Positions 1,745 through 35,844 of a stretch of 35,844 bases of DNA are shown one piece after another. Numbering within the stretch: position 1 is the stretch's first letter; each line of letters starts with the position of its first letter. The notes under the pieces were generated by a model. It worked only from the letters and a program-made list of their open reading frames with translations. It did not search any database and was not told where the DNA came from. The DNA is from a virus, in IMG/VR virus record IMGVR_UViG_3300027708_000178, positions 1 through 35,844 of that record. One strand, given 5' to 3'. Position numbers and translations under genes: made by a program.

Positions 1745-2422
1745 TTGAACAATTTAAATGATATAACAATTTGTGTAGTAGATTGCAAGAATTACGACAA
1801 TGCTGCAAAATCAATAATTCATTGTTTTTCAAATTGCGGAATAACTTTTAATAAAGCAATTTATTTTTCAGACATAAAACATTACAAATTAAAAGAATAT
1901 GGCATCAATTATGTAAACATAAATAAAATATCGTCTGCTAGAGAATATGACAATTTTATGATTAAAGAATTTTCAAAACACATAGAAACAAAATTTGCAC
2001 TAATTGTTCAACATGATGGTTTAATTTATAAGCCAGAAAAGTGGACAAATGATTTTTTAAAATATGACTATATTGGTGCTTCTTGGCCTCAATCTCCAAA
2101 AGGTTCAAATCATGTTGGCAATGGTGGTTTTTGTTTAAGGTCAAAAGCATTTATGGATAAAGCATCAGAAATTATTGGCGATTCATATTGTGATCATGCT
2201 GAAGATGTTTTCTTGTGTTGTACAATATATAAACAAATGTTAAATTTTGGTTTTAAATATGCAGATATCGATACTGCTTGTAAATTTTCAGTTGAACAAC
2301 ATTGGTCAAAAACAAACAATGATTCTTTTGGATTTCATTTGGCTGCATGTAATGCTATTGCAGATCATGTTGATTTTAGAGAAAAGGTTTACAATAGAAT
2401 TAAAGAAAATTGGAATAATTAA
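1745..2422 (+). CDS. DUF5672 family protein (glycosyltransferase-like)
   Basis: The frame opens at GTG 1709, but only TTG 1745 has a ribosome site in front (TTGGAG at 1735-1740, spacing a little short), giving 225 aa. Diagnostic blocks are LIVQHDGLIY, the YDYIGASWP segment, VGNGGFCLRS and HAEDVFLCC, which match the DUF5672 pattern (QHD, DYIGAPW, GNGGFSLR, PEDV). The family is found in surface-polysaccharide loci and thought to be glycosyltransferase-related. It ends tail to tail with the DUF6165 gene, the two TAA codons sharing bases 2420-2421. Confidence 0.8.
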   Translation: MNNLNDITICVVDCKNYDNAAKSIIHCFSNCGITFNKAIYFSDIKHYKLKEYGINYVNINKISSAREYDNFMIKEFSKHIETKFALIVQHDGLIYKPEKWTNDFLKYDYIGASWPQSPKGSNHVGNGGFCLRSKAFMDKASEIIGDSYCDHAEDVFLCCTIYKQMLNFGFKYADIDTACKFSVEQHWSKTNNDSFGFHLAACNAIADHVDFREKVYNRIKENWNN

Positions 2423-2784
2423 TTTATTTCATGTTTTTTTTCATCAAAAAATCCACTAATTGTTTCTTCATCTATTGTTTTTTTTAATTTGTTTCTTTTA
2501 TCATTATATTCAAATATAGATTTTGCAGATTTTAAAATTTCTTCATCATTAACTTTTGACCTTACTATATTTTCATATTTCCATATTACTTTATTTATAT
2601 AAAATAATTCTTCTTCAAATTCAATAATTTTAATTCTTAAATTTTCTGGCATTTGATTATAAATAGTTAAAAGACTTTCTAATTGATTAATATTATTTTC
2701 ATTGTTTATTACGGAACACTTTATTTTTAAAATTGTTATTTTATCAATCAATTCACCAGTTCCAATAAATACATTATGTATCAT
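2419..2784 (-). CDS. DUF6165-like protein
   Basis: 121 aa, largely helical. The N-terminal GTGELIDKITILKIK block and a later INKVIWKYENIVRSK segment match my memory of DUF6165, a small family next to glycosyltransferases in lipopolysaccharide clusters. There are no catalytic residues I can name, so it may be an adaptor. Upstream is a methyltransferase on the same strand, with the 2785-2801 gap carrying the ribosome site region. Confidence 0.65.
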   Translation of the reverse strand: MIHNVFIGTGELIDKITILKIKCSVINNENNINQLESLLTIYNQMPENLRIKIIEFEEELFYINKVIWKYENIVRSKVNDEEILKSAKSIFEYNDKRNKLKKTIDEETISGFFDEKKHEIN

Positions 2785-2801
2785 ATTATTTTTTCCAATA
2801 T

Positions 2802-3359
2802 TTAATTGTTTTCATAAATCCAACAGTCGCCAATAATTAAAACTTTTTTATCTTCAAAAAACTCATCAACTGCTTTTGTTACAGTTTTCCAAGAACCATA
2901 ATCATGACCAGATATAATTCCACCAAATTTAACTTTTGGCAACCATGCATTTATATCTGCCTTTACATTTTCATAATCATGACTACCATCTATAAATATA
3001 AAGTCTATTGTTTTATCTTCATAGTTTTTTGATGCAGATATAGAATCTAATCTAACTGGATTAATTACACTTAACAAAGAAGATATATTTTTAATAAATA
3101 ATTCGTATAAATCATCTGATATTATATTTTCATATGCTACATGTTCAGAACTTCCTTTCCATGTATCTATACAATCTAATGTTATGTTTTTTTTAGAGTT
3201 TATAATTTCTACAGCAAGATAAGCTGAACTTTTTCCTTTCCACGATCCAATTTCAATAAATTTGCTTCCATAAGGAAACTTTTTAACCATTGACTTATAA
3301 AAGTCTTTATAATTAAACCAATCTTCTCCAAACTGTGGGAGTTGATATATGTGATTCAT
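2802..3359 (-). CDS. class I SAM-dependent methyltransferase (Methyltransf_24 type)
   Basis: 185 aa. Motif I is FIEIGSWKGKSS (residues 34-45), the acidic partner is CIDTWKGS (63-70), and motif IV with metal or substrate residues is FIDGSHDYENV (122-132), followed by GGIISGHDY (146-154). These are hallmarks of the small sugar or peptide methyltransferases of phage and bacterial surface loci. Its ATG overlaps the stop of the 3356-4606 fusion gene by 4 bases, so translation is coupled. Confidence 0.88.
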   Translation of the reverse strand: MNHIYQLPQFGEDWFNYKDFYKSMVKKFPYGSKFIEIGSWKGKSSAYLAVEIINSKKNITLDCIDTWKGSSEHVAYENIISDDLYELFIKNISSLLSVINPVRLDSISASKNYEDKTIDFIFIDGSHDYENVKADINAWLPKVKFGGIISGHDYGSWKTVTKAVDEFFEDKKVLIIGDCWIYENN

Positions 3360-4606
3360 ATTGATACTTCACCAGGAACTCTCATTTTTAATGCTTCATC
3401 TGGAACTTTTAATATGTCAGCTTTTACATAAAGAATATTGTGTGTCTTATGCCATTCGGTTGGATAAAAGTTTTTAATTCTATTTGCTTGAAATCTTACT
3501 GGTGTTCCAATGTATTTAGCCTGATCTCTTTTTGTGTAATACCAGAAACTATTGCTATTCCAAAATGATATATGTGTTGGATCTTGAAAAGCACCTCTAC
3601 CATCTGTAGATGGAGTCTGAGTTAAAAACCAACCCATTGGGCATAGGCATCTATAAGCTTCTTTCATCACATGAATTGGGTCTTTTAAATGCTCAAGTGC
3701 ATCATGTGCTCTTATCAATCCCACTTCACCATCTTTAAAAGGCCAAGGATCGTTTAAATCATGTATAATTTCTGCGTTATGCATGTCTACTGACTTGTAC
3801 CCCTTTGGAGGATTAAAACCTCCACAAAGGTCTATCTTAAGCAAACCATTAAGATCACACCATTTCTCAGCTAATGCGTAGATATATCTATCATGAATGT
3901 TTAATGTCTCTTCTTGAATGAAAGCATTCTTTTCACCGTAACAAGTATTGTTTTTATGCTTATAGTAAATATACAAGCACTTATCTATATGTTTAACATT
4001 TCCTTGTATGTATGTCCTGCAAAGTATGTCATGATCATCTAAAACTTCCATTGTTTCATCATGTCCACCAATCTTTTCGTAAAACGATTTTTTCCAAGCA
4101 CGAACATGATTTGGGGCAAACCAAATTTTAGAGAATGATGCTGGAGTTGAATCAAATGATATTAGTTCTAAAAGATCTTTGCCATGATATTTAAATGGTC
4201 TATTTCTCCAACCATAATAATCAGAGTAAACAAATGGCTTTCCATCAGGGTCTATTTCTGCACAATTTGAATATGCAAAATCAATTGTTTGATCTGAATT
4301 AAATGCGTTATATAATTCCTGCAAACAATCTTCTGTTAATTCATCATCATGATCAACTTCAACTACCACAATGCCATTTGATCCCATAGACCCTTCTTTT
4401 TTGAAGAGTCCAATTAATTTTGAATCAGGATTTTTTGATACTACAATCCTTGGTTTAAAATCCAAAGACTCAACATCAATATTGGCATTTCCATTAGGAA
4501 CAATTACCCATTCAAAATCTTTAAATGTTTGCCTTGCTATAGAGCGAGAAAGTCTAGCAAGGAATTGAGTATTGTGCGTTGGCGTAACTATAGAAAAGTA
4601 TGGCAT
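3356..4606 (-). CDS. fusion of family-2 glycosyltransferase and SAM methyltransferase
   Basis: 416 aa with two domains. Residues 1-250 are a GT-A glycosyltransferase: FSIVTPTHN start, metal-binding VDHDDE (84-89) and a late LDDHD acceptor-side motif (189-193). Residues about 255-416 are a methyltransferase: IDLCGGFNPPKGY (258-270), HDLNDPWPF, then ALEHLKDP and the GAFQDPTHISFW segment seen in putative sugar methyltransferases. The fusion suggests that one sugar is added and methylated by the same protein. It ends against the downstream methyltransferase and lies one codon from the upstream oxygenase. Confidence 0.88.
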   Translation of the reverse strand: MPYFSIVTPTHNTQFLARLSRSIARQTFKDFEWVIVPNGNANIDVESLDFKPRIVVSKNPDSKLIGLFKKEGSMGSNGIVVVEVDHDDELTEDCLQELYNAFNSDQTIDFAYSNCAEIDPDGKPFVYSDYYGWRNRPFKYHGKDLLELISFDSTPASFSKIWFAPNHVRAWKKSFYEKIGGHDETMEVLDDHDILCRTYIQGNVKHIDKCLYIYYKHKNNTCYGEKNAFIQEETLNIHDRYIYALAEKWCDLNGLLKIDLCGGFNPPKGYKSVDMHNAEIIHDLNDPWPFKDGEVGLIRAHDALEHLKDPIHVMKEAYRCLCPMGWFLTQTPSTDGRGAFQDPTHISFWNSNSFWYYTKRDQAKYIGTPVRFQANRIKNFYPTEWHKTHNILYVKADILKVPDEALKMRVPGEVSI

Positions 4607-5203
4607 TTATTTTTTCACATTAAAAAAGAATAGTTGAACTAACCTAGAAAACTCACCGTACATTGTGGCTGAGTGAATCATTTTTCCATCCCAAAGAACT
4701 AGTCTGTTATATACAGACCCAACTCTGTCTACTAACTCCCAACTATCTTCATTTAATAAGCTATGCTGTGTGTATATGTCTGATTCATTTATGTCTTCTC
4801 TATTTTCCAATGGATGACTTGGTGGTCTTCTACAGCCATATTTTTTATCTTTCCAAAATGATGTTCCAGCATTTGTTGGGCCATCTTTAGTTAAGTATAC
4901 TGCTGCTGCATAGTCTTGTGAATCACTATGCCATACTAATGGGTCATTTCCAGATGTTATTTGAAAAACACCATTCATTGGTTGATTTAACCAATCTACT
5001 ATTTCTACTTGCAACAACTTTTCAAATTCTTCTTTTACATAAGGAAACAAACAACCTGTTGTTCTTTTTCCTTTGTAGAATTTGTTTTCTTCTTTAAAAT
5101 CAAAATCTTTTGTTTTTTCAACTATCCAATCTGGATCTTTATAAAAGTTGTCAACAACAAGCAAACTAGGTATTCTTTGATTAAATATGATTTCATTATC
5201 CAT
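4607..5203 (-). CDS. DUF6445-like 2OG-Fe(II) oxygenase
   Basis: I start at ATG 5203 (AAAGGAC site 8 bases upstream) rather than 5227, giving 198 aa. The iron triad is visible as WHSDS (H92, D94) and H177, with R187 as the likely 2-oxoglutarate ligand. The PLVWHSDSQDYAAAVYLT block and the late LVLWDGKMIHSA block fit the DUF6445 family of phage and bacterial dioxygenases. The reaction would be hydroxylation of an unknown protein or glycan. It overlaps the 3' end of 5196-5819 by 8 bases. Confidence 0.8.
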   Translation of the reverse strand: MDNEIIFNQRIPSLLVVDNFYKDPDWIVEKTKDFDFKEENKFYKGKRTTGCLFPYVKEEFEKLLQVEIVDWLNQPMNGVFQITSGNDPLVWHSDSQDYAAAVYLTKDGPTNAGTSFWKDKKYGCRRPPSHPLENREDINESDIYTQHSLLNEDSWELVDRVGSVYNRLVLWDGKMIHSATMYGEFSRLVQLFFFNVKK

Positions 5204-7730: not shown

Positions 7731-8688
7731 GGTTATCAAAAAAAATTTTATAATCAATATGTTTTGCTATTTTTTTTACTATATCTTGAAAAACTTTGTC
7801 TATTGTTAAAACAACTTCTTCTATATCTGTCATCATAGATATATGCTTTTCAACATTTGAATTGTCAATTGGTTTTTTAATTAAATTTATTAATTGTTCT
7901 TTATTTTTAAATGTGCCTAATTCAAAATCTTTGATTATTTCCATTGGAATAAAACCTTCTGTCTTATCATATCTTTTAAATGTTCCCTGATCTATGGGAA
8001 CTAATACTCTTATTCCTCTTGGAACCATATCTATTACAGAATTCTCATAAGCTCCGGGATGAGTCATTATAAACGATTCAATTTGAGATGTTTTTTCCAT
8101 GTACTCTTTATAATTACATTTAAATATTGGTTCTATAATTTTTGAATTTGGCACATCATTTTTTTTTGTTAGCTGATAAAGTTTATAACCTTGTTCTACA
8201 AGTTCAGTTAACCAATCTGTTATTTCTACAGATATGTCTTTTCCAAAACCTATTTCTGGATTATGGTCATCTAAAAGAATTGTTTTTGGTATTTTTTCTT
8301 TATATTTAAAAAATTTTTTTGAACAAGGGTATGGGATATAGCAATCTGGAGAACTTTCCCTTAGATTTCCAAATGAATAATCCCACAAACTTTTATTTTC
8401 TAAAAATGTTGAGGTTTTATAATTAACTTTTTCTTTTGCTAAATGATGATTATTTAAAACATTTAATGTGTATAGAGTTGTTAATAAAAAATCGCACTTT
8501 GGAATTTTTTCAAAAGTTTTTTCTGGATTGTGCTCTGTTTTCCAATCAAATTGAACAACTTTTAAATCAACATGGTTTAATTTTAAAAAATGCTCAAGTA
8601 ATCCTGTTGAATACCTACGCAAACTATTTGTAGATTCTTCAACAGAATTTTCAAATTGACCAAATAAACATAAAGAGTAATTAATCAA
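7720..8688 (-). CDS. putative GT-B-like glycosyltransferase
   Basis: 322 aa. The clearest feature is SFIMTHPGAYENSVIDMVPRG followed by IRVLVPIDQGTF in the C-terminal half, which resembles the donor-binding part of GT-B glycosyltransferases (H-P-G-x-x-E-N then a conserved strand). The N-terminal half has alternating strands (NYSLCLFGQFE, KCDFLLTTLYTL, KTILLDDHNPE). The start codon overlaps the DUF1501 stop as ATGA, so the two are translationally coupled. The family is not certain. Confidence 0.6.
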   Translation of the reverse strand: MINYSLCLFGQFENSVEESTNSLRRYSTGLLEHFLKLNHVDLKVVQFDWKTEHNPEKTFEKIPKCDFLLTTLYTLNVLNNHHLAKEKVNYKTSTFLENKSLWDYSFGNLRESSPDCYIPYPCSKKFFKYKEKIPKTILLDDHNPEIGFGKDISVEITDWLTELVEQGYKLYQLTKKNDVPNSKIIEPIFKCNYKEYMEKTSQIESFIMTHPGAYENSVIDMVPRGIRVLVPIDQGTFKRYDKTEGFIPMEIIKDFELGTFKNKEQLINLIKKPIDNSNVEKHISMMTDIEEVVLTIDKVFQDIVKKIAKHIDYKIFFDNLNL

Positions 8689-9962
8689 AATATATCTAAA
8701 GCCTTTCCTTCTGATATAGGTATTGGTCGCCCTAAATTATCCCTAATTTGGAACATTGGGTCTAAACCCAAAGCTTTGTATACTGTAGCATAAACATCTG
8801 AAATACTGCAAGGTTTGTCTTTAATATCCATACCATCAGCGGTTGTAGAACCATAAACCTGTCCACCTTGGATAGTACCACCACCAAGAACCACAGACCA
8901 ACATCTGGCCCAATGATCACGCCCACCATTTTGATTAATCTTGGGTGTACGACCAAACTCTCCCATCCACATAACTACAGTATCTTTCCACATACCCATA
9001 TCTACCAAGTCCTTGACCAAATATCCCATGCCCATATCAAGACGATTCCCATTCCCATTCCTAATAGCACTAAAGATATTGCTATGATTATCCCATCCAC
9101 CCAAATCGATTTGTACACAGCTAACTCCTTTAGAAATTAACTTTCTAGCAAGAAGACAACCCATTCCAAAGTTATTTCCTCTACCACCATAAGACTCAAT
9201 CGTTTTAGGATTTTCGTCTTTTAGTTCAAATATTGTTTTTAACGGAGATAGTGTAAGATCAAAGGCTTTGCCATAGATATTAGAATGAGATTGAGCATGA
9301 TTGCCCATAGCTTCTCTAGCCACACTATTTTTAATATGAGGTGCAATTCTTTCCGAAAAATCGTCTTCCAATGTATAAAACAGTCTTTGTCTTCTCCTAA
9401 GTCTTTCTTCATCATCTATTTCCTTTGGTGCTTTAATGTTTTCTGGTGGAGTTCCAGCATTTTGTACTGTAAATGGTGCTAGGTTTGTTCCTAAAAATCC
9501 TGGCCCAATTCTTTGTGCTGAATTTCCAATACCAATAAATCCTGGCAGTGGTAGTTCTTTTGATGTTAAAAGAGAAGATGTTACCGATCCAATGGATGGA
9601 TACTGCACAACAACGCTTGGTTGATGCCCAGTATTCATTAAAACGGTTCCTCTCTCATGACTTCCTTCGTTGGTCACAAGAGATCGAACAGCAACTAAAT
9701 TGTGAAACTGAGAAGCGATTGTTGGAAGAACTTCACTAATGCTAACTCCATTTGCTGAAGTGAGTATTTGTTTAAATTCACCACCATTTGCTTGCCCCTG
9801 TTTTAAATCCCAAAGATCCATATGACTAGGACCACCGCCCATCCACAACACAATAAGTTTTTTTCCAGACTTTTTAAGTGTTTCTTCTTGTGCTTTAACT
9901 TTGCCCACAAAAGAAAGTGCAGAAATACCAGCCGTATGTTTTATAAAATGTCTTCTGTTCAT
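8685..9962 (-). CDS. DUF1501 protein with Tat signal
   Basis: 425 aa. The N-terminus RRHFIK followed by a hydrophobic stretch ending KAQ is a twin-arginine export signal. Downstream are the DUF1501 hallmarks: GGGPSHMDLWDLKQG (42-56), SHERGTVLMNTGHQPS, GGWDNHSNIF, WMGEFGRTPKIN and GGRDHWARCW, with metal-type His/Asp pairs as in the alkaline-phosphatase/sulfatase-like fold. The family is numerous in Planctomycetes, usually 430-490 aa, so this copy is complete if compact. Finding it in a phage operon, ATGA-coupled on both sides (csrA upstream, glycosyltransferase-like gene downstream), is unusual and suggests capture from a host. The substrate is unknown. Confidence 0.92.
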   Translation of the reverse strand: MNRRHFIKHTAGISALSFVGKVKAQEETLKKSGKKLIVLWMGGGPSHMDLWDLKQGQANGGEFKQILTSANGVSISEVLPTIASQFHNLVAVRSLVTNEGSHERGTVLMNTGHQPSVVVQYPSIGSVTSSLLTSKELPLPGFIGIGNSAQRIGPGFLGTNLAPFTVQNAGTPPENIKAPKEIDDEERLRRRQRLFYTLEDDFSERIAPHIKNSVAREAMGNHAQSHSNIYGKAFDLTLSPLKTIFELKDENPKTIESYGGRGNNFGMGCLLARKLISKGVSCVQIDLGGWDNHSNIFSAIRNGNGNRLDMGMGYLVKDLVDMGMWKDTVVMWMGEFGRTPKINQNGGRDHWARCWSVVLGGGTIQGGQVYGSTTADGMDIKDKPCSISDVYATVYKALGLDPMFQIRDNLGRPIPISEGKALDIF

Positions 9963-10189
9963 CTTTTCTCCGATCTTGGAATTGTTGGTGTGAACAATAT
10001 ATCTTTTGGTTTTAAATCAACTGCATTATCTCGCATGATTTTAATGTTTTTTGGTGCTTTAATACGCAATCTAACTTGATTTGAATATGTATTTATTTCT
10101 TTAATGGTAACCTCTATATTACCAGAATCGGTATAAATAGTAAAAGCTTCATTCAATTTTCTAGCAAAAACCAAACTTCCAATTTCCAT
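9959..10189 (-). CDS. csrA: CsrA/RsmA-family translational regulator
   Basis: 76 aa. It aligns to CsrA from LVFARKLNE through NQVRLRIKAPKNIKIMRD. R10 matches E. coli R6, and R53 in IMRDNA matches R44, the two key RNA-contacting arginines. There is a 3-4 residue insertion (YTDSGNIE) between the first strands, and the C-terminal tail (KDILFTPTIPRSEKR) differs from E. coli. It should dimerise and bind GGA motifs in RNA hairpin loops, often over ribosome sites. Its own ribosome site is GGGGGA, itself a GGA motif, so autoregulation is plausible. Its stop overlaps the DUF1501 start as ATGA, and a structured leader lies upstream. Confidence 0.92.
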   Translation of the reverse strand: MEIGSLVFARKLNEAFTIYTDSGNIEVTIKEINTYSNQVRLRIKAPKNIKIMRDNAVDLKPKDILFTPTIPRSEKR

Positions 10190-10884: not shown

Positions 10885-11100
10885 TTATAAACAATCCCAT
10901 AGTTTTTTATTGGTATCCCAATCGGGAACTTGTCTTTTATCTATACCAGCATATAACCAATGATTTTCCATTTCTTCTTGATGAGTTTTTATTGCTTCTT
11001 CAAGCTTTTTAATTCTTTCGTATTGTAATGTAAAATGAAATTGCAATTCAAAATTAAAATCTTCCAAAGTTTTGATTTGTTTTTGTTCAGTAGTATTCAT
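10885..11100 (-). CDS. hypothetical protein, 71 aa
   Basis: A helical, charged protein (QYERIKKLEEAIKTHQEEMEN) with a Trp-containing C-terminus (DWDTNKKLWDCL). Start and stop of the tail-tube-like gene share one base (TAATG), so it is translated with that gene and could be a tail assembly factor, though nothing in the sequence proves it. Confidence 0.75.
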   Translation of the reverse strand: MNTTEQKQIKTLEDFNFELQFHFTLQYERIKKLEEAIKTHQEEMENHWLYAGIDKRQVPDWDTNKKLWDCL

Positions 11101-12044
11101 TATGTTACCGTAAAATCATTAAATGTCTTAAAACTATATGTTATTGTTGCATTACCACCGTCTGTACCGCCACCTTGATAGTTTGCAGATTGTAACTTGT
11201 TCTTTTTTCCAAGGTCTATTGTTGTTCCATTTAAAAAAACCAATTTTATTTCTTCATCTGTAAGATTGTTTGTATCCTCAACAACGCCTATTTGATCGCC
11301 CTTTTTTGCTATAATCTCAAATTGTGCTGTTACTTCTACTGGAAATTTCGCATATCTAAAATATGGAACTTTACTTCCAAGCTCAAGTATTTTTTCTCTA
11401 GTTATATTTGCACCAACAGTTATTGATTGGAATGATGATATTGCTGGTATGCAATTTGGTATTTTTGAAGCACCAATATTAACATGCTGTCTTCTTTGTA
11501 TAGTCAAATCTGGCTTATCGTCTGGAACATTTGTTTCTGGAAAATTATTTATATACCATTCTCCATCTGATGGATTTAAACTGTTTGACCAAATCTTTTC
11601 ATTTCCAACAAGAGTTATAGATTCTGTTGCATTTCCTTCAACTGCCACTTTGTATGTTATTTGGCTTACAACACACTTTTTCATTACACAACCAGCTTTT
11701 GCTGTACCAGTTGCAGCTACAGATGTATCATCAAAAATGGCTAATGCTACAGAACATTGTGCTACTGATTTTGCCGATAAGGTAGTTCCAACAGCACTTG
11801 ATGTTGCTAAATTGTAAAGAAGATCTCTTCCATCTAATACTTTTTCTAATGTTACTTCAACATCAGGAACATTTTCAACATTTTCATAAATTGAAATCAT
11901 CCCAACTTCAAAAATTTGTTCTAAGTTAAACTGTGTATTTATGCCAACACTCTGAACACCATGAGCAACAGTAAAATTTGCACCGTCTTTGTCACCAATT
12001 CCAACTGCTTGGCAAGCATAAAAAATTCTTCTGTTGATTGTCAT
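11100..12044 (-). CDS. tail-tube-like virion structural protein
   Basis: 314 aa, beta-rich, with GVQSVGINTQFNLEQIFEVG (29-48), ISIYENVENVPDVEVTLEKVLDG and a late ITYSFKTFNDFTV. This arrangement resembles putative tail-tube or structural proteins annotated in large marine myoviruses. It has a biased composition low in Trp and high in Thr, Ala and Val, as expected of a self-assembling subunit. TGGAGC precedes ATG 12044. A sheath or capsid decoration role cannot be excluded. Confidence 0.65.
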   Translation of the reverse strand: MTINRRIFYACQAVGIGDKDGANFTVAHGVQSVGINTQFNLEQIFEVGMISIYENVENVPDVEVTLEKVLDGRDLLYNLATSSAVGTTLSAKSVAQCSVALAIFDDTSVAATGTAKAGCVMKKCVVSQITYKVAVEGNATESITLVGNEKIWSNSLNPSDGEWYINNFPETNVPDDKPDLTIQRRQHVNIGASKIPNCIPAISSFQSITVGANITREKILELGSKVPYFRYAKFPVEVTAQFEIIAKKGDQIGVVEDTNNLTDEEIKLVFLNGTTIDLGKKNKLQSANYQGGGTDGGNATITYSFKTFNDFTVT

Positions 12045-16081: not shown

Positions 16082-16675
16082 CTAAGGCATAGGTGTTGTT
16101 GGTTCTGGACTTGTTGTACAATTTGTATTTCCTTTATTAATACTATTTACTGAATTTAAACAATTTACATAATTATAATTTTCATATGGGCTGCACACAA
16201 ATTCATTTGTTGCTACACAAACTGCACAAATATTTGTTGCATTTATGTAATATACTCTACTTGATACACCTGTTGGACATGGCGTTGTTGTAACGGTTGT
16301 GGTTGTTGTGCTTGTACTTGTTGTTGTAGTCACTTCTGGAAAAGTAGAAAAAAGTTCTTCTTGAGACTTTTTATAATATAAAAAACTTTCAAGTGTTCCC
16401 ATTTTTCTATTTAAACATATTTCTGAAATATCCTTACATTCAGTATAATTTTCAACATTTATAATTGGCAAATATTGTAAGTAATCATATATATCAAAAT
16501 CTTTATCATCAGAAAATATATTTTTTGCATAAAAATATTCTAATTTACCTTCATAATTTGCCATTATTACATTATCTTGATCCATTTGATTTCTATAAAA
16601 TTTAAGTTTTATTTGTGCAACAAGTTCTATATTTTCATAAGAAAAAATATTAGAAGTTTGATATCTAAAAGCCAT
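16082..16675 (-). CDS. virion-like protein with Thr-rich linker and Cys-rich tail
   Basis: 197 aa. The N-terminal ~115 residues look globular and Asp/Tyr-rich. Then comes a threonine run (TTTTSTSTTTTTVTTTPCP) and a C-terminal domain with Cys at CAVC, C (VCSP), C (NCLN) and C (NCTT). Such Thr linkers are typical of fibre or appendage proteins, so surface exposure is likely. Coupled to the 28-aa membrane microprotein upstream by TAATG. Confidence 0.6.
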   Translation of the reverse strand: MAFRYQTSNIFSYENIELVAQIKLKFYRNQMDQDNVIMANYEGKLEYFYAKNIFSDDKDFDIYDYLQYLPIINVENYTECKDISEICLNRKMGTLESFLYYKKSQEELFSTFPEVTTTTSTSTTTTTVTTTPCPTGVSSRVYYINATNICAVCVATNEFVCSPYENYNYVNCLNSVNSINKGNTNCTTSPEPTTPMP

Positions 16676-16761
16676 TAATCACCATTGCTTGGAAATATGC
16701 CTTTAATAATACCAATTATAATAGAACATATCAGAATAAAAGTCATTGCATCTTTGTTCAT
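16675..16761 (-). CDS. 28-aa single-span membrane microprotein, copy A
   Basis: Starts MNKDAM, then a hydrophobic span FILICSIIIGIIKGIF and a short polar end SNGD. The stop and the next start share TAATG, and its own ATG overlaps the stop of the 16758-17018 gene. A second copy at 20581-20667 has the same length and 23 of 28 residues identical. A membrane role (for example lysis or superinfection control) is inference. Confidence 0.75.
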   Translation of the reverse strand: MNKDAMTFILICSIIIGIIKGIFPSNGD

Positions 16762-17018
16762 TTTTGAAACTCTTTTTCGAATTGTAGTTCTTCAATAAAT
16801 TCAACTCTGTCATAAAATCTATTCATGTTAACCATAAAAGTATTTAATGTTTCAACATTAGACTGTACTTCCATAATATTAAAACATGTTTCATTGTTTT
16901 TTAAGGATGATTTTACACTCTTCAAGAGATGTAACAAATTACTCGCATATGAATGAAACTGATCTACTGACTCAATAAACTCTTTAACATTCTTTTTTGC
17001 AATCTTTTTGAAGTCCAT
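16758..17018 (-). CDS. helical protein, 86 aa
   Basis: Start ATG 17018 has AAGGAGG at a good distance; the frame upstream to 17063 lacks one. Helical, with Lys-rich N-terminus (MDFKKIAKKNVKEF) and a coiled-coil-like second half. It is read from the transcript of promoter copy 5, whose leader carries a very stable hairpin (17040-17057). No family recognised. Confidence 0.75.
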   Translation of the reverse strand: MDFKKIAKKNVKEFIESVDQFHSYASNLLHLLKSVKSSLKNNETCFNIMEVQSNVETLNTFMVNMNRFYDRVEFIEELQFEKEFQK

Positions 17019-20338: not shown

Positions 20339-20581
20339 TTAATAAACTTTACTTGTAAATAAATATTCAGATAACGCTTTAATATAACTAGTTAGCTCTA
20401 AAACATTGTCTCGATCATCTTTATCTAAAATATCATCTTCATGTACCCGATAAATATTCTTATCTGCTCCAACTGCTAACCATTTTTTATAAACTTTCCA
20501 AGGTTCGACCAAAGTGTAAATAGCAAAGTTATTCTCTGCTGTTTTGCAAACAACCACATCGTTTTTTTTATATTTTGTCAT
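20339..20581 (-). CDS. hypothetical protein, 80 aa
   Basis: N-terminal strands (KNDVVVCKTAENNFAIYTLV) resemble an SH3-like barrel, then a helical end. Its ATG shares bases with the TAA of microprotein copy B, the same TAATG arrangement as at 16675. Confidence 0.7.
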   Translation of the reverse strand: MTKYKKNDVVVCKTAENNFAIYTLVEPWKVYKKWLAVGADKNIYRVHEDDILDKDDRDNVLELTSYIKALSEYLFTSKVY

Positions 20582-20667
20582 TAGTCACCTCTACTTGGAA
20601 ATATACCTTTGATAAAACCAATTACACAAGAACATATTAGAATAAAATTCATTGCATCTTTGTTCAT
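20581..20667 (-). CDS. 28-aa single-span membrane microprotein, copy B
   Basis: MNKDAM start, hydrophobic FILICSCVIGFIKGIF span, SRGD end. AAGGAG stands at a normal distance. Same length and same TAATG junction as copy A at 16675-16761, which suggests duplication of the gene together with its downstream junction. Confidence 0.78.
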   Translation of the reverse strand: MNKDAMNFILICSCVIGFIKGIFPSRGD

Positions 20668-20819
20668 TTGATCTCCTTAAGTAATTGTAATTGTTCACGC
20701 AACGCCTTTACTTCTTTACGCAACTTATCTAGTTCATTCTCATTTTGTTTAATGGCAAGATGAGCAAGATCCCATCTGTTTAACTTTACAAAATTCTCAA
20801 TTTCTTTTTCATTAATCAT
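20664..20819 (-). CDS. 51-aa leucine-zipper-like protein
   Basis: ATG 20819 after AAGGAG. The second half (NELDKLRKEVKALREQLQLL) has heptad-spaced leucines, so a dimeric coiled coil is likely. Stop overlaps the start of microprotein copy B as ATGA. First gene downstream of promoter copy 7. Confidence 0.72.
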   Translation of the reverse strand: MINEKEIENFVKLNRWDLAHLAIKQNENELDKLRKEVKALREQLQLLKEIK

Positions 20820-29939: not shown

Positions 29940-30160
29940 AAAAGAAAATTCTTCCGCTAAATCTTTTTGGGGGTTGTGCGAATGATTAAGTAGAAGCGTG
30001 AGGGATACGCAGAAACCCGATCTGATGCAAGGGCTGAAGGTGTTATGAGTGCGGTACGACTATTAAAAAAAAGTAGTGTGTAGCCATACTCTGGCGAACC
30101 CGCTTATTGTTGGTAAGACAAAAGCAGGAAGATCATTTCTCAAGTCGCATCGTGTTTCTT
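29940..30160 (-). ncRNA. gene-free, relatively GC-rich transcript candidate
   Basis: About 220 bases between promoter copies 16 and 15, with no minus-strand ORF above 14 codons and none credible on the plus strand. It is visibly richer in G and C than the surroundings and holds local stems such as GCGT-GAGGGAT-ACGC. A transcript from copy 16 would cover it without coding anything. Which strand is functional is uncertain. Confidence 0.4.
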
Positions 30161-32604: not shown

Positions 32605-32631
32605 TATTCGTGTGAGTATGGTTTTTATTTA
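32605..32631 (-). promoter_or_regulatory. bipartite promoter motif, copy 20
   Basis: TAAATAAAAACC ... CACACGAATAG, exact spacing. Upstream (minus sense) the sequence ATATTCCATT precedes the box, as in copies 24 and 27. Drives 32427-32564. Confidence 0.7.
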
Positions 32632-32653
32632 ATGGAATATGAAAAGATTTTTA

Positions 32654-32670
32654 GTATAACCAAGTATAAC
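32654..32670. promoter_or_regulatory. tandem GTATAAC site upstream of promoter copy 20
   Basis: GTATAACCAAGTATAAC, two heptamers with 10-bp period, starting 22 bases beyond the TAAATA box. Helical phasing suggests binding of a regulator to one DNA face. Confidence 0.55.
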
Positions 32671-32671
32671 C

Positions 32672-32757
32672 ATAAAAGCAATGTGCGTTCCGCATCCCCG
32701 ATCCCTCTCCCGATTCCAGAGAGGCGGGTTGTTTTATATCGGCCCTCCCGATGTTAT
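32672..32757 (-). ncRNA. GGA-rich RNA candidate 1 (possible CsrA decoy)
   Basis: Transcribed by promoter copy 21 and ending near the operator of copy 20, with no ORF. Six GGA triplets lie within about 75 bases. One hairpin, CCTCTC-TGGAATCGG-GAGAGG, presents GGA in its loop, and another, ATCGG-GAGGG-CCGAT (32738-32752), recurs at 34399-34414. The 15-mer GGGGATGCGGAACGC (32685-32699) recurs at 35821-35835. The rest of 32565-33052 holds the promoters and sites listed separately. Decoy function is inference. Confidence 0.45.
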
Positions 32758-32759
32758 AT

Positions 32760-32786
32760 TATTCGTTTAACCACCCAAATTATTTA
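32760..32786 (-). promoter_or_regulatory. bipartite promoter motif driving GGA-rich RNA 1, copy 21
   Basis: TAAATAATTTGGG ... TTAAACGAATAATAT, exact spacing. No ORF follows; the next element in the minus sense is the GGA-rich stretch. Confidence 0.7.
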
Positions 32787-32807
32787 GAAAAATTTTTAAA
32801 ATAAATG

Positions 32808-32824
32808 GTATAACAAAGTATAAT
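32808..32824. promoter_or_regulatory. tandem GTATAAC site upstream of promoter copy 21
   Basis: GTATAACAAAGTATAAT, 10-bp period, 21 bases beyond the TAAATA box. The flanking ~50 bases (TTTTTGATTTTG and on) are repeated beside promoter copy 25. The 33052-32825 stretch has no credible gene: frames there lack a ribosome site. Confidence 0.55.
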
Positions 32825-33052
32825 TTTTGATTTTGATAGTGTTGATAATACACTTTTTGTTCATTGGAAAAGTGTGAAACCAATTTTGCAATCTCTGAAG
32901 AATTATCTTGACAGGTTTTTAACCCCATGTGTAAAATCGTCTTGCAAGGGGATATGTTTAACACATTTTAAAATCCTATCTTATCTCCAAATAGGTTAAA
33001 TACTATCTGCATTTGATAGAGTTCATAATTTGAGCAGAGAAATACATAAAGG

Positions 33053-33247
33053 CTAATCATTGTAACTTTCCTCCAAAGTGAAAAATTCTGGTACTGGTTC
33101 AAGTTCATGCTTACCAAAATGAAGTTTAATCCATAGTTCTTTGATGTCTGCTTCCTTGTAGAAGTGTCCATCTGCTTTATCTAGACTCAACCTAATCAAA
33201 GCATATTCAAGCAATTGTTTCTCTACACTGCTAACTTTAATAAGCAT
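33053..33247 (-). CDS. hypothetical protein, 64 aa
   Basis: AAGGAGG before ATG 33247, which shares a base with the TAA of 33247-33399. Helical, MLIKVSSVEKQLLEYALIRL, acidic end FFTLEESYND. No family recognised. Confidence 0.72.
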   Translation of the reverse strand: MLIKVSSVEKQLLEYALIRLSLDKADGHFYKEADIKELWIKLHFGKHELEPVPEFFTLEESYND

Positions 33248-33399
33248 TACACTACCTCCTTAGTGAGTTTTAGTTTTTCGCCCTGTCTACCGCCCTTGGG
33301 CGATTTCTTCTTGCTCTTGAATACCACCATGCCCCTTGGCGTTTCCCCTCTGCGTTCAAAGGGGGTGTTTACCAATACAAATCTGATAGTCCTACTCAT
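33247..33399 (-). CDS. basic protein, 50 aa
   Basis: AAGGAG before ATG 33399. Strand MSRTIRFVLVN, then a Lys/Arg/Gly-rich half (VVFKSKKKSPKGGRQGEKLK). Clearly basic, so RNA or DNA contact is likely. G and C richer than neighbours. TAATG junction to the next gene. Confidence 0.72.
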   Translation of the reverse strand: MSRTIRFVLVNTPFERRGETPRGMVVFKSKKKSPKGGRQGEKLKLTKEVV

Positions 33400-33422
33400 G
33401 TTACATTCTCCTTGTAAAGTTC

Positions 33423-33449
33423 TATTCGTTTAACTACACATTTAATTTA
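33423..33449 (-). promoter_or_regulatory. bipartite promoter motif, copy 22
   Basis: TAAATTAAATG ... TTAAACGAATAG, exact spacing with one mismatch. The upstream TAA is the stop of 33447-33788. Drives 33247-33399. Confidence 0.62.
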
Positions 33450-33788
33450 GCGATCATACCTACTTGGTTTACGCATAGCATTGCCATTCTCATGAATGAA
33501 ATCATCAATGCTTAACGCCTGTTCATTGTCTACTTCTCTCTGCTCCAACATCTGATGCAGGGCTTGACAACCGTCTAAGATTCTGCAATGAAGATAAGCA
33601 GGATACTTGCCATCTACTGTTTGTATCCAACCATGCGAAAACTCTTCTTCGAAGCTGGTTACCACAAAGGTATTAGACTTTGGGTTGTAATTTACTCCGA
33701 TTATGTAAGCATGACCATTGTTCAAGACTTCTGGCATATGCTTAAGAAACTCTGCGTACTCATGACATTCTAAAATCAAATCGTTCAT
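33447..33788 (-). CDS. hypothetical protein, 113 aa
   Basis: Begins MNDLILECHEYAEFLKHMPE with strands GHAYIIGVNYNPKSNTFVVT later, and a helical CQALHQMLEQREVDNEQ end. AAAGGGG (33793-33799) is a plausible ribosome site. No family recognised. Confidence 0.7.
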   Translation of the reverse strand: MNDLILECHEYAEFLKHMPEVLNNGHAYIIGVNYNPKSNTFVVTSFEEEFSHGWIQTVDGKYPAYLHCRILDGCQALHQMLEQREVDNEQALSIDDFIHENGNAMRKPSRYDR

Positions 33789-33812
33789 AGCTAACCCCTT
33801 TCAAGGATTGTG

Positions 33813-33968
33813 TTACTCTTCGCCTTCCCAACCGTGACGATCCCAACCACCACAATTTTCGTTATCATCATCATCTTCCGTATCGTCTTCGATATATTCC
33901 CATTCGAGGAAACTTGGAAGATCATCTTCAAAACTCTCAAACTCCCATTCGTCATCAGTAAAGTCCAT
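33813..33968 (-). CDS. 51-aa highly acidic protein
   Basis: CCAAGGAGATAGC before ATG 33968 is a good ribosome site. Almost half of the residues are Asp or Glu (DDEWEFESFEDD, EDDTEDDDDNEN), with aromatic residues between them and a Gly/Trp end (GGWDRHGWEGEE). The composition recalls DNA-mimic anti-restriction proteins. First gene after promoter copy 23. Confidence 0.7.
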   Translation of the reverse strand: MDFTDDEWEFESFEDDLPSFLEWEYIEDDTEDDDDNENCGGWDRHGWEGEE

Positions 33969-34001
33969 CGCTATCTCCTTGGTTATTGTTTCCTACTTAC
34001 T

Positions 34002-34028
34002 TATTCGTATGACTATACTTTTTATTTA
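34002..34028 (-). promoter_or_regulatory. bipartite promoter motif, copy 23
   Basis: TAAATAAAAAG ... TCATACGAATAAGTA, exact spacing. The upstream TAA is the stop of 34026-34223. Drives the acidic gene. Confidence 0.68.
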
Positions 34029-34223
34029 GCTATTTTGAATATCTTCTTGTCGATCTTGAATGATTTTGCAATACTCTTGAGCTTCCTCAAGTGTCTTGAA
34101 CTCTTCTTTAATCTCATCTAGTGTCATCGTTTCAACAATCCAATGACCACCAGCATCATAATTATCCTTTGCCCAATTTAGTATTTGTCTAGGTAAAACC
34201 AATCTTTCATCAGGTATCCACAT
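34026..34223 (-). CDS. acidic helical protein, 65 aa
   Basis: AAAGGAG before ATG 34223. Pattern LVLPRQILNWAKDNYDAGGHW then an acidic helix TLDEIKEEFKTLEEAQEYCK. Stop is in promoter copy 23. No family recognised. Confidence 0.7.
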   Translation of the reverse strand: MWIPDERLVLPRQILNWAKDNYDAGGHWIVETMTLDEIKEEFKTLEEAQEYCKIIQDRQEDIQNS

Positions 34224-34265
34224 TTTTCCATCTCCTTTGTTTTAGTTACTGCTTCCGTACTATTC

Positions 34266-34292
34266 TATTCGTGCAAGTATGCTTTTTATTTA
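34266..34292 (-). promoter_or_regulatory. bipartite promoter motif, copy 24
   Basis: TAAATAAAAAG ... TTGCACGAATAG, exact spacing, preceded by ATATTCCATT as in copies 20 and 27. A degenerate heptamer GTAAAAC (34314) lies 21 bases beyond the box. Drives 34026-34223. Confidence 0.68.
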
Positions 34293-34329
34293 ATGGAATA
34301 TAAAAATATTTTAGTAAAACTTTATTATA

Positions 34330-34453
34330 CTAAATTAAATCAGTCCAGGCTCCCCTCATCCCCCCTAGATTTTTTCCTAGATGGCAAGCTTATTTTTTAT
34401 CGGCCCTTCCCGATTTTTTCAGATTTTTGTTTGTTTTCCTCCTTTCTATATAT
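34330..34453 (-). ncRNA. GGA-rich RNA candidate 2 (possible CsrA decoy)
   Basis: Runs from promoter copy 25 towards copy 24 with no ORF. Seven GGA triplets occur, including an AAGGAGG with no start codon in range, so a ribosome site without a gene. Hairpins ATCGG-GAAGGG-CCGAT and CTAG-GAAAAAAT-CTAG place GGA in or next to loops. It shares the first hairpin and the promoter arrangement with candidate 1. Together with candidate 3 it fills the 505-base gap 34224-34728. Confidence 0.45.
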
Positions 34454-34456
34454 TTC

Positions 34457-34483
34457 TATTCGTGCAAGGCAGGCAATTATTTA
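34457..34483 (-). promoter_or_regulatory. bipartite promoter motif driving GGA-rich RNA 2, copy 25
   Basis: TAAATAATTGCC ... TTGCACGAATAG, exact spacing. No ORF follows in the minus sense before copy 24. Confidence 0.7.
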
Positions 34484-34514
34484 GTAAAAAAAATAAATTT
34501 TTCCCAAATAAATA

Positions 34515-34531
34515 GTATAACAAAGTATTAC
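34515..34531. promoter_or_regulatory. tandem GTATAAC site upstream of promoter copy 25
   Basis: GTATAACAAAGTATTAC, 10-bp period, 31 bases beyond the TAAATA box, one helical turn further than in copies 20 and 21. Confidence 0.5.
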
Positions 34532-34539
34532 ATTTTTGA

Positions 34540-34735
34540 TTTTGTTGGTACTGGTAAGACACACAATCTAGACGCACCATGCCCCCACCTCAGTGGTCTT
34601 GGTAAGACACCCTGAGCTTTTTTAAAAAGTCTGCTTTTTTCGTTTTCGGTATCTCACCGTGGTTTGCACCTAAAAGCAGAAAACATACCGATCATTTTAA
34701 CTTAATACATTTTGTTTACCTCTCATTGTTATATA
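34540..34735 (-). ncRNA. gene-free transcript candidate with pseudoknot-like pairing
   Basis: Downstream of promoter copy 26, without a credible ORF. CGGTAT/ATACCG (34647-34652 with 34685-34690) and TCTGCTTTT/AAAAGCAGA (34630-34638 with 34672-34680) interleave, so they form a pseudoknot or two exclusive folds. TGGTAAGACAC occurs twice (about 34552 and 34603), and GGTTTGCACC is shared with the DUF932 terminator region. No GGA enrichment. Confidence 0.4.
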
Positions 34736-34974
34736 TAGTTATTCGTACTAGGACCGATATTATTTAGGAAATAGTTCCAAGTTTTTGGGAAATCATCGTA
34801 ACGATACCTTATACAAGTTTGGGCAATGTTACGATATCCTGCAATCTTTTCTACTACCTTTATCCTTGCCATATTGCATACCTTGCAATAGTGGCGTTCA
34901 AAAACATTACCATCATCATCGGTATCTCTACCTAGCTTATTCCATTTATCATGATTACAGTTTTTAACTATCAT
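34729..34974 (-). CDS. hypothetical protein, 81 aa, with CxxC
   Basis: Begins MIVKNCNHDKWNKLG; a Cys-x2-His type start and YCKVCNMARIKV (30-41) would form a zinc knuckle. GGGGGA before ATG 34974. The last 12 codons (CTA AAT AAT ... ACG AAT AAC) are promoter copy 26. No family recognised. Confidence 0.72.
   Translation of the reverse strand: MIVKNCNHDKWNKLGRDTDDDGNVFERHYCKVCNMARIKVVEKIAGYRNIAQTCIRYRYDDFPKTWNYFLNNIGPSTNNYI
34740..34766 (-). promoter_or_regulatory. bipartite promoter motif inside a coding end, copy 26
   Basis: TAAATAATATCGG ... AGTACGAATAAC, exact spacing, read through in frame by the last codons of the 34729-34974 gene. Drives the pseudoknot candidate. Confidence 0.62.
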
Positions 34975-34986
34975 CTTACTTCCCCC

Positions 34987-35688
34987 TTAGTGGTATATGT
35001 ATGCTACATTTTTGTAATCTTTATCCCAACACTTGCGACAATCTTCGCAGTTAGCTTCACTTTCACCAGTGAACGATCTTAAGCTTGCAGGACATACATT
35101 CTCATGTCGAATATCTGCATTAACTGGCGTTGATATTACCGTTGAAGTAGGTAAACCCAACCCACTACTTGGAACTTGATCGACCATAAACATTGAAGCA
35201 CGAACAATAAGGTTATCAGGAAATTCACCGTATAGTGATTGATACTCACGAATCATGCCATGTTCTTTACTAGGTAGCCAGAACTTGATTTCTGGTACTG
35301 CTTTAGCTATGTTAGCTATTGCAAGCAGCATATCTACCGATTGTAAATCCCCACTAGTGAACCATCTGAAATATCTTTTCTCTTGCTTAAGTCTTTTTAA
35401 CTTACCTTGGAAGTAAGCTATAAAGCTTTCTTGCCATTCTTGTAAGCTTCCCCCTATTTGTTCCATCCTAGCTAAGTCTGCTTTCTTCTTACTACCGAAG
35501 ATATATCTACCTTTAAGAGCATAGCAGCCGTTACAGATAGAGCCTTTAACCTTGACTAGCTTCGATCCCGTTTGGCATAGCCAAGCTGGTAAATCCCAAG
35601 ACTCCCAAGGCATTTTAGTTGTTTGCGAAGTCTTAATCGTGATTTTGTTAGCCTTAACATTGTCAACCGTAGTCAATTCCATTCTCAT
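34987..35688 (-). CDS. GP88-like phage protein
   Basis: ATG 35688 has AAAGGAAAG ahead and is preferred to 35724, giving 233 aa. Features are SICNGCYALKGRY (51-63), FRWFTSGDLQSVDMLLAIAN, then IKFWLPSKE and a late C cluster with CPASLRSF and CEDCRKCW. The CNxCYALKG start and WLPSKE block fit the gene product 88 family first described in mycobacteriophages. The Cys pattern suggests metal binding. Function unresolved. Confidence 0.8.
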   Translation of the reverse strand: MRMELTTVDNVKANKITIKTSQTTKMPWESWDLPAWLCQTGSKLVKVKGSICNGCYALKGRYIFGSKKKADLARMEQIGGSLQEWQESFIAYFQGKLKRLKQEKRYFRWFTSGDLQSVDMLLAIANIAKAVPEIKFWLPSKEHGMIREYQSLYGEFPDNLIVRASMFMVDQVPSSGLGLPTSTVISTPVNADIRHENVCPASLRSFTGESEANCEDCRKCWDKDYKNVAYIYH

Positions 35689-35731
35689 TTTACTTTCCTT
35701 TTCCTTAGTGTTAGTTATCCTCATGCTATCT

Positions 35732-35758
35732 TATTCGTTTAACTATGATTATTATTTA
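35732..35758 (-). promoter_or_regulatory. bipartite promoter motif, copy 27
   Basis: TAAATAATAATC ... TTAAACGAATAAGATAG, exact spacing, preceded by ATATTCTATT. Drives the GP88-like gene. Confidence 0.7.
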
Positions 35759-35789
35759 ATAGAATATAGAATTATTTTAAATATATTTT

Positions 35790-35806
35790 GTTATACTATG
35801 TTATAC
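35790..35806. promoter_or_regulatory. tandem GTTATAC site upstream of promoter copy 27
   Basis: GTTATACTATGTTATAC on the plus strand, that is inverted with respect to copies 20, 21 and 25, but again with 10-bp period and 31 bases beyond the box. Confidence 0.5.
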
Positions 35807-35844
35807 CAATAAAGCTATAGGCGTTCCGCATCCCCTATTCCATA
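35807..35844 (-). ncRNA. edge of a third GGA-rich cassette (partial)
   Basis: The 15-mer GGGGATGCGGAACGC at 35821-35835 matches 32685-32699; here ATAGG and CCTAT close a 12-base loop holding two GGA triplets, and a third GGA lies just outside. The window ends before its promoter. Confidence 0.35.

Follow-up and report, generated by a model that had tools for sequence, protein, structure and literature searches.

The stretch of DNA analysed here (the window) is the entire IMG/VR record IMGVR_UViG_3300027708_000178, 35,844 bases long, which is a piece of a larger phage genome. It carries four copies of a previously undescribed, phage-encoded structured small RNA with no match among the Rfam families: RNA-A (cassette 1), RNA-C (cassette 2), the 3' end of RNA-B and a decayed fourth copy, RNA-G (Table 1). 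To judge from compensatory changes among relatives, the cassettes are real, folded, sense-strand RNA elements. Our preferred reading, held with middling confidence, is that they are trans-acting folded RNAs, most likely protein-binding, which would function early in infection. Structured small RNAs that are encoded by phages and conserved in fold are, to our knowledge, rare. The present family offers a defined and testable fold (hairpin P1, pseudoknot, hairpin P2 and tail), with orthologues known from four positions and a phylum of candidate hosts, and through it one could ask directly to what use a virus puts multiple copies of such an RNA. A tempting reading, namely that a GGA-rich RNA together with a phage csrA gene makes a CsrA sponge, is corrected as well.

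Conservation of the RNA copies

Relatives were gathered by IMG/VR scans with the 15-mer GGGGATGCGGAACGC, a gapped pattern and the neighbouring proteins, and range from near-identical down to 67% identity in GP88 and DUF932. Since many of the 77 contigs with the 15-mer contain it by chance, just the contigs showing the promoter context were used. The fullest relative records are G001 (221 kb), G004 (141.8 kb), G005 (111.6 kb) and G007 (88 kb).

The RNA is kept at orthologous positions in these phages: RNA-A before a 45-codon open reading frame (ORF45), RNA-B before GP88, RNA-C before ORF65, and RNA-G past DUF932, on the other strand. The RNA-A core has 65-70 of 70 positions identical among orthologues. 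Orthologues of RNA-C are present in G004, G007, G009, G010, G011, G012 and G013, complete copies of RNA-B in L079, L080, L109 and G008, and better preserved copies of RNA-G in G001, G004, G012 and G013. Identity is 93-100% in the RNA core versus about 70-92% in the flanks, which indicates purifying selection on the core. The tail occurs in two types, GGGGAUGnGGnACG in A, B and G, and GGGGAGCCUGGACU in C and in the minus-strand copies of G001. A partial third copy at the right edge, noticed in the first-pass annotation of the window, was confirmed as the end of RNA-B, with GGGGATGCGGAACGC recurring at 32685-32699 and 35821-35835.

A covariance model (R1) built from six type-I sequences matched all 15 close records and found the plus-strand copies at an E-value of about 1e-6. 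A permissive Rfam search (the window region, L083, L094, L109 and L040) and a search of the whole window at gathering thresholds gave no family for the cassettes.

Fold and covariation

As the comparison shows, the loop of the P1 hairpin pairs with a downstream strand to form a pseudoknot, and a second hairpin (P2) and a G-rich tail follow. This fold was assessed on an alignment of 18 variants, made by hand to suit the fold and thus flattering to it, against shuffles that preserve each strand. The A-position copy of G001 (at 77378) was left out, and P1 was paired in 17 of the 17 variants that have it, through seven different loop-proximal 3-bp stems (52% when shuffled). The pseudoknot was paired in 18 of 18, in four compensated versions (GGG/CCC, AAG/CTT, UGG/CCA and GGA/UCC; 82% when shuffled), and none of 10,000 shuffles did as well. 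P2 was paired in 92% of cells versus 74% after shuffling. The paired sequences thus vary freely while their pairing is kept, and the tail is held constant. We regard the B-position copy of G004 as the best independent case for the fold: it has a new stem, AGGTT/AACCT, and a loop, GGAGA, that exactly complements a downstream TCTCC. A nested CCC/GGG pairing suggested by minimum-energy folds was rejected, as it showed no covariation and 17.8% of shuffles were as good.

The 13 G-U pairs favour the sense strand of the promoter as the RNA strand; 11 cells are unpaired on this strand versus 23 on its complement. The least probable of the explanations considered holds that the unit is conserved for a function of the DNA, binding a regulator or starting replication, and that its fold is incidental. 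The copies are indeed flanked by direct repeats, but G-U pairs and compensated, otherwise unrelated stem sequences fit an RNA and not DNA binding sites.

Promoter-driven noncoding cassettes in a CsrA-encoding phage had been proposed in the first-pass annotation, which also suggested a covariance search in related phages. The proposal is borne out by conserved noncoding elements at the same places in relatives and by their compensatory changes.

In pistol ribozymes, a hairpin with a G-rich loop that pairs to a downstream C strand is followed by a further hairpin. The cassette RNAs share this arrangement; however, their conserved tail differs and they gave no Rfam ribozyme match at E-values up to 1.

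Promoters and direct repeats

The promoters are of a phage type, TAAAT..CGAATA, and far more frequent than chance would give: the pattern TAAAT-N-GAATA matches at 28 minus-strand sites of the window and at a single plus-strand site. Their layout is near-fixed, and they mostly head small genes, often overlapping the stop codon of the preceding gene. In both cassettes a promoter faces a stretch without a credible open reading frame and a second promoter copy follows (Table 1), just as first described. The promoters of cassettes 1 and 2 are both preceded by the direct repeat GTTATACTTTGTTATAC. Another repeat and promoter come after the repeat-promoter-RNA unit, an arrangement that recombination between repeats could have produced by inserting the unit.

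Beside the early region of L163, at 4222-4758 (+) and 2288-2875 (-), lie genes for two distinct proteins that resemble sigma factors (weak matches to PHROG 1740) and may read the TAAAT-CGAATA promoter.

Action in trans or in cis

According to the preferred reading, each cassette would be a small-RNA gene consisting of a direct repeat, a phage-type promoter and a structured RNA of about 70 nucleotides. The RNAs would be transcribed early in infection from the minus strand, and one copy from the plus strand, under control by a common regulator. They would act in trans as folded RNAs, most probably with the pseudoknot and tail presented to a host or phage protein for which the RNA might serve as inhibitor, decoy or adaptor. 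Two observations favour trans action. The plus-strand copy has no sense gene ahead of it but the antisense strand of DUF932 and, in one relative, a tRNA; and a new promoter directly follows each minus-strand RNA.

The main rival, rather unlikely in our estimate, is a cis element at the start of an early transcript, whose nascent RNA binds RNA polymerase or alters downstream elongation or translation. The put element of phage HK022 lies just downstream of PL and consists of about 70 nucleotides with two stem-loops (PMC9378689). The cassette RNAs resemble putL and putR, by description and not by sequence, in length, in having two stem-loops close to where transcription from repeat-bearing, presumably early promoters begins, and in occurring in more than one copy per phage and on both strands. 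They differ in their pseudoknot and G-rich tail. The minus-strand copies precede genes, but there is no sense operon behind the plus-strand copy, and polymerases starting at the new promoter after each minus-strand RNA would not carry that RNA. Moreover, copies with about 40 nucleotides of extra leader coexist with copies that start near the promoter.

Several observations weigh against the trans-acting reading. A search for intrinsic terminators at the ends of the minus-strand RNAs gave none, and a longer messenger RNA may therefore begin with the RNA, as it would with a put-like element. The minus-strand copies also keep their neighbours, RNA-B with GP88 and RNA-C with ORF65, even at 67% GP88 identity, and a cis role would explain this stable linkage as well. 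P1 and the pseudoknot are not clear in the A-position copy of G001, the plus-strand copy of the window has lost part of its tail, and the cassette RNAs are known here from DNA sequence alone.

A further rival, a highly improbable one, is that the pseudoknot RNA works like an antitoxin and neutralises a host type III toxin. Phage PhiTE provides a precedent in pseudo-ToxI, a phage-encoded pseudoknot RNA (PMC3475682), and in the A and C types of the present pseudoknot an A-rich linker crosses P1. ToxI, however, consists of tandem pseudoknot repeats of about 36 nucleotides before a toxin gene, whereas the cassettes hold single units with an additional hairpin and a conserved tail, and their neighbours (GP88, the 65-amino-acid ORF and the 45-amino-acid ORF) include no recognised toxin gene.

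When the phage genomes were searched for antisense targets of the tail, the main site besides the RNA copies themselves was GGATGCGGAAC, in a small signal-peptide-like gene of G001 and G005, which was taken as a chance match.

GGA content and CsrA

That the phage encodes CsrA, as the first-pass annotation had stated, is credible from the PF02599 match and from an invariant arginine that aligns with R44 of E. coli CsrA. The gene is present in G000, G001, G004, G005 and G007, which include all four long RNA-bearing records. Its pairing with a planctomycete-like, signal-bearing DUF1501 gene (window 8685-10189, minus strand) is kept in G001 and G004. Phages are known to carry csrA, in about 1% of genomes, and CsrA binds at short stem-loops whose apical loop contains GGA (PMC7366521).

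The first-pass annotation had suggested that the cassettes produce decoy RNAs of the CsrB/RsmZ kind for the phage CsrA; we consider this improbable, whether the CsrA titrated is that of the phage or of the host. Like CsrB and RsmZ, the cassette RNA is small and noncoding, comes from a genome that has csrA, and contains several GGA triplets in the window copies; the six and seven first counted are correct for the minus strand. In minimum-energy folds, only two triplets of cassette 1 and one of cassette 2 are mostly apical, and the number in apical loops is 0-2 per copy. Cassette 1 has 6 GGA against 4.2 expected, a number reached by 10% of dinucleotide shuffles, and the core of cassette 2 has 5 against 4.5, reached by 53%. 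Enrichment over dinucleotide shuffles was not clear in any copy (lowest fraction 0.09).

Conservation of the GGA positions in relatives, on which the decoy proposal had been made to depend, was not found for most of them. Counts fall to 1-4 in several relatives, the apical GGA in the P2 loop of cassette 1 is replaced by GAA or GGU in two, and the tail GGA has become GGU in the plus-strand copies. The conserved loop GAGGG is engaged in the pseudoknot and hence unexposed. The RNA therefore differs from CsrB/RsmZ in lacking enriched or conserved GGA and a repeated apical-loop display, as well as in its pseudoknot architecture, and an Rfam search gave no match to a described CsrA-binding RNA family.

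Some points do speak for a role of CsrA. Among the planctomycete metagenome-assembled genomes (MAGs) in which the closest relatives of DUF1501 occur, 7 of 7 searched have 3-4 copies of csrA. The co-occurrence of the RNA and csrA in the long records is confined to one lineage and so has little weight. Because a single tail GGAUG or GGGGA is kept in most copies, the RNA may bind CsrA weakly or at one site, and CsrA is thus a possible, though not a favoured, target.

Lineage and host

The RNA-bearing lineage is one of uncultured freshwater phages. Using tblastn against annotated phages, DUF932 and the protein at 11100-12044 had no match and TerL had distant matches only (<26% identity), so that the lineage has no close relative among the annotated phages searched. 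A further 32 TerL relatives had neither a full-length RNA match nor csrA; most of these are fragments, in which the relevant regions may not be covered. In G001 (L145-L156), much of the genome is present twice, as diverged copies offset by about 146 kb. The record probably represents two related phages merged during assembly and should therefore not be taken to show two csrA genes in a single phage.

Along its whole length, the DUF1501 gene of the phage shares 64-71% identity with genes from Planctomycetota MAGs, many of freshwater origin, and this resemblance suggests a planctomycete host. A search of 294 Planctomycetota genomes with the RNA model gave no convincing copy; the best match (L282) was a low-complexity stretch of the TCCGCATTCCGCA type without the P1 and pseudoknot part, probably due to chance. 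We tentatively propose, as an idea that may well prove wrong, that the cassettes form a multi-copy family of trans-acting pseudoknot RNAs, in which repeat-promoter-RNA units recombine among the early promoters of a planctomycete phage lineage and which, in the course of infection, commandeers a regulator or defence protein of the host.

Features of the window and other elements

Table 1. Positions of the RNA cassettes, their promoters and repeats, and csrA in the window
Feature	Position	Strand	Basis
RNA-A core: P1 ATCGG/CCGAT, loop GAGGG with CCC (32726-32728), P2 CCTCTC/GAGAGG, tail GGGGATGCGGAACGC	32685-32752	-	covariation
Direct repeat TTATACTTTGTTATACC upstream of cassette 1 promoter	32807-32823	-	sequence; repeat families D12, D19; similar repeat before RNA promoters of relatives
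RNA-A promoter, phage-type, TAAATAATTTGGGTGGTTAAACGAATA	32760-32786	-	one of the 28 minus-strand matches
Direct repeat GGTTATACTTGGTTATACT upstream of next promoter	32654-32671	-	sequence
Second promoter copy after RNA-A, before ORF 32564-32427 (45 amino acids)	32605-32631	-	promoter pattern
RNA-C core: P1 ATCGG/CCGAT, loop GAAGGG (AAG with CTT), P2 CCATCTAG/CTAGGGGG, tail AGGGGAGCCTGGACT	34342-34414	-	orthologues, covariation
Direct repeat upstream of cassette 2 promoter	34515-34531	-	sequence; repeat family D12
RNA-C promoter, phage-type	34457-34483	-	promoter pattern
Second promoter copy after RNA-C, before ORF 34223-34026 (65 amino acids)	34266-34292	-	promoter pattern
RNA-B 3' end, cut by contig end	35821-35844	-	model match 36.4 bits, truncated 5'
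Direct repeat between RNA-B and following promoter	35790-35807	-	sequence
Promoter after RNA-B, before GP88-like gene 34987-35724 (Pfam PF17338)	35732-35758	-	promoter pattern
RNA-G, decayed fourth copy: P1 GCGT/ACGC, GAGGG/CCC pseudoknot; faces antisense of DUF932 gene	29996-30060	+	sequence, model match
RNA-G promoter	29958-29985	+	sequence; same arrangement with better promoter match in relatives
csrA, 76 amino acids, 4-base overlap with DUF1501 gene (8685-9962)	9959-10189	-	PF02599, E-value 4.3e-10; PHROG 9500; orthologues

A second conserved structured element, not in Rfam, lies at 34622-34694 (minus strand) of the window, upstream of a repeat-promoter-RNA unit, and also at L083:5376-5446 and in L109. 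It has a stem CTGCTTTT/AAAAGCAG, an inner stem CGG-TGAGATA-CCG with compensatory changes, and constant AGGnGCAA and CGAAAA motifs. At 30170-30065 (minus strand), a promoter is followed by a strong hairpin (30099-30128, CCTGCTT/AAGCGGG) and a T run, converging on RNA-G; a similar hairpin is present in L083, L089 and L094. The 10-mer TGTCTTACCA occurs, far above chance, at three noncoding sites near the RNAs (34609, 34561 and 30120, minus strand) and once in a gene (24191).

Two matches to other RNA families were below threshold: a type II hammerhead ribozyme at L083:3926-3981 (plus strand; 29.7 bits, cut-off 37, E-value 0.04) and the DUF2815 RNA family at L109:4293-4350 (minus strand; 30.5 bits, cut-off 41.2). 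Finally, a 91-base direct repeat, 87% identical, is located between small genes at 16673-16763 and 20579-20669 of the window.

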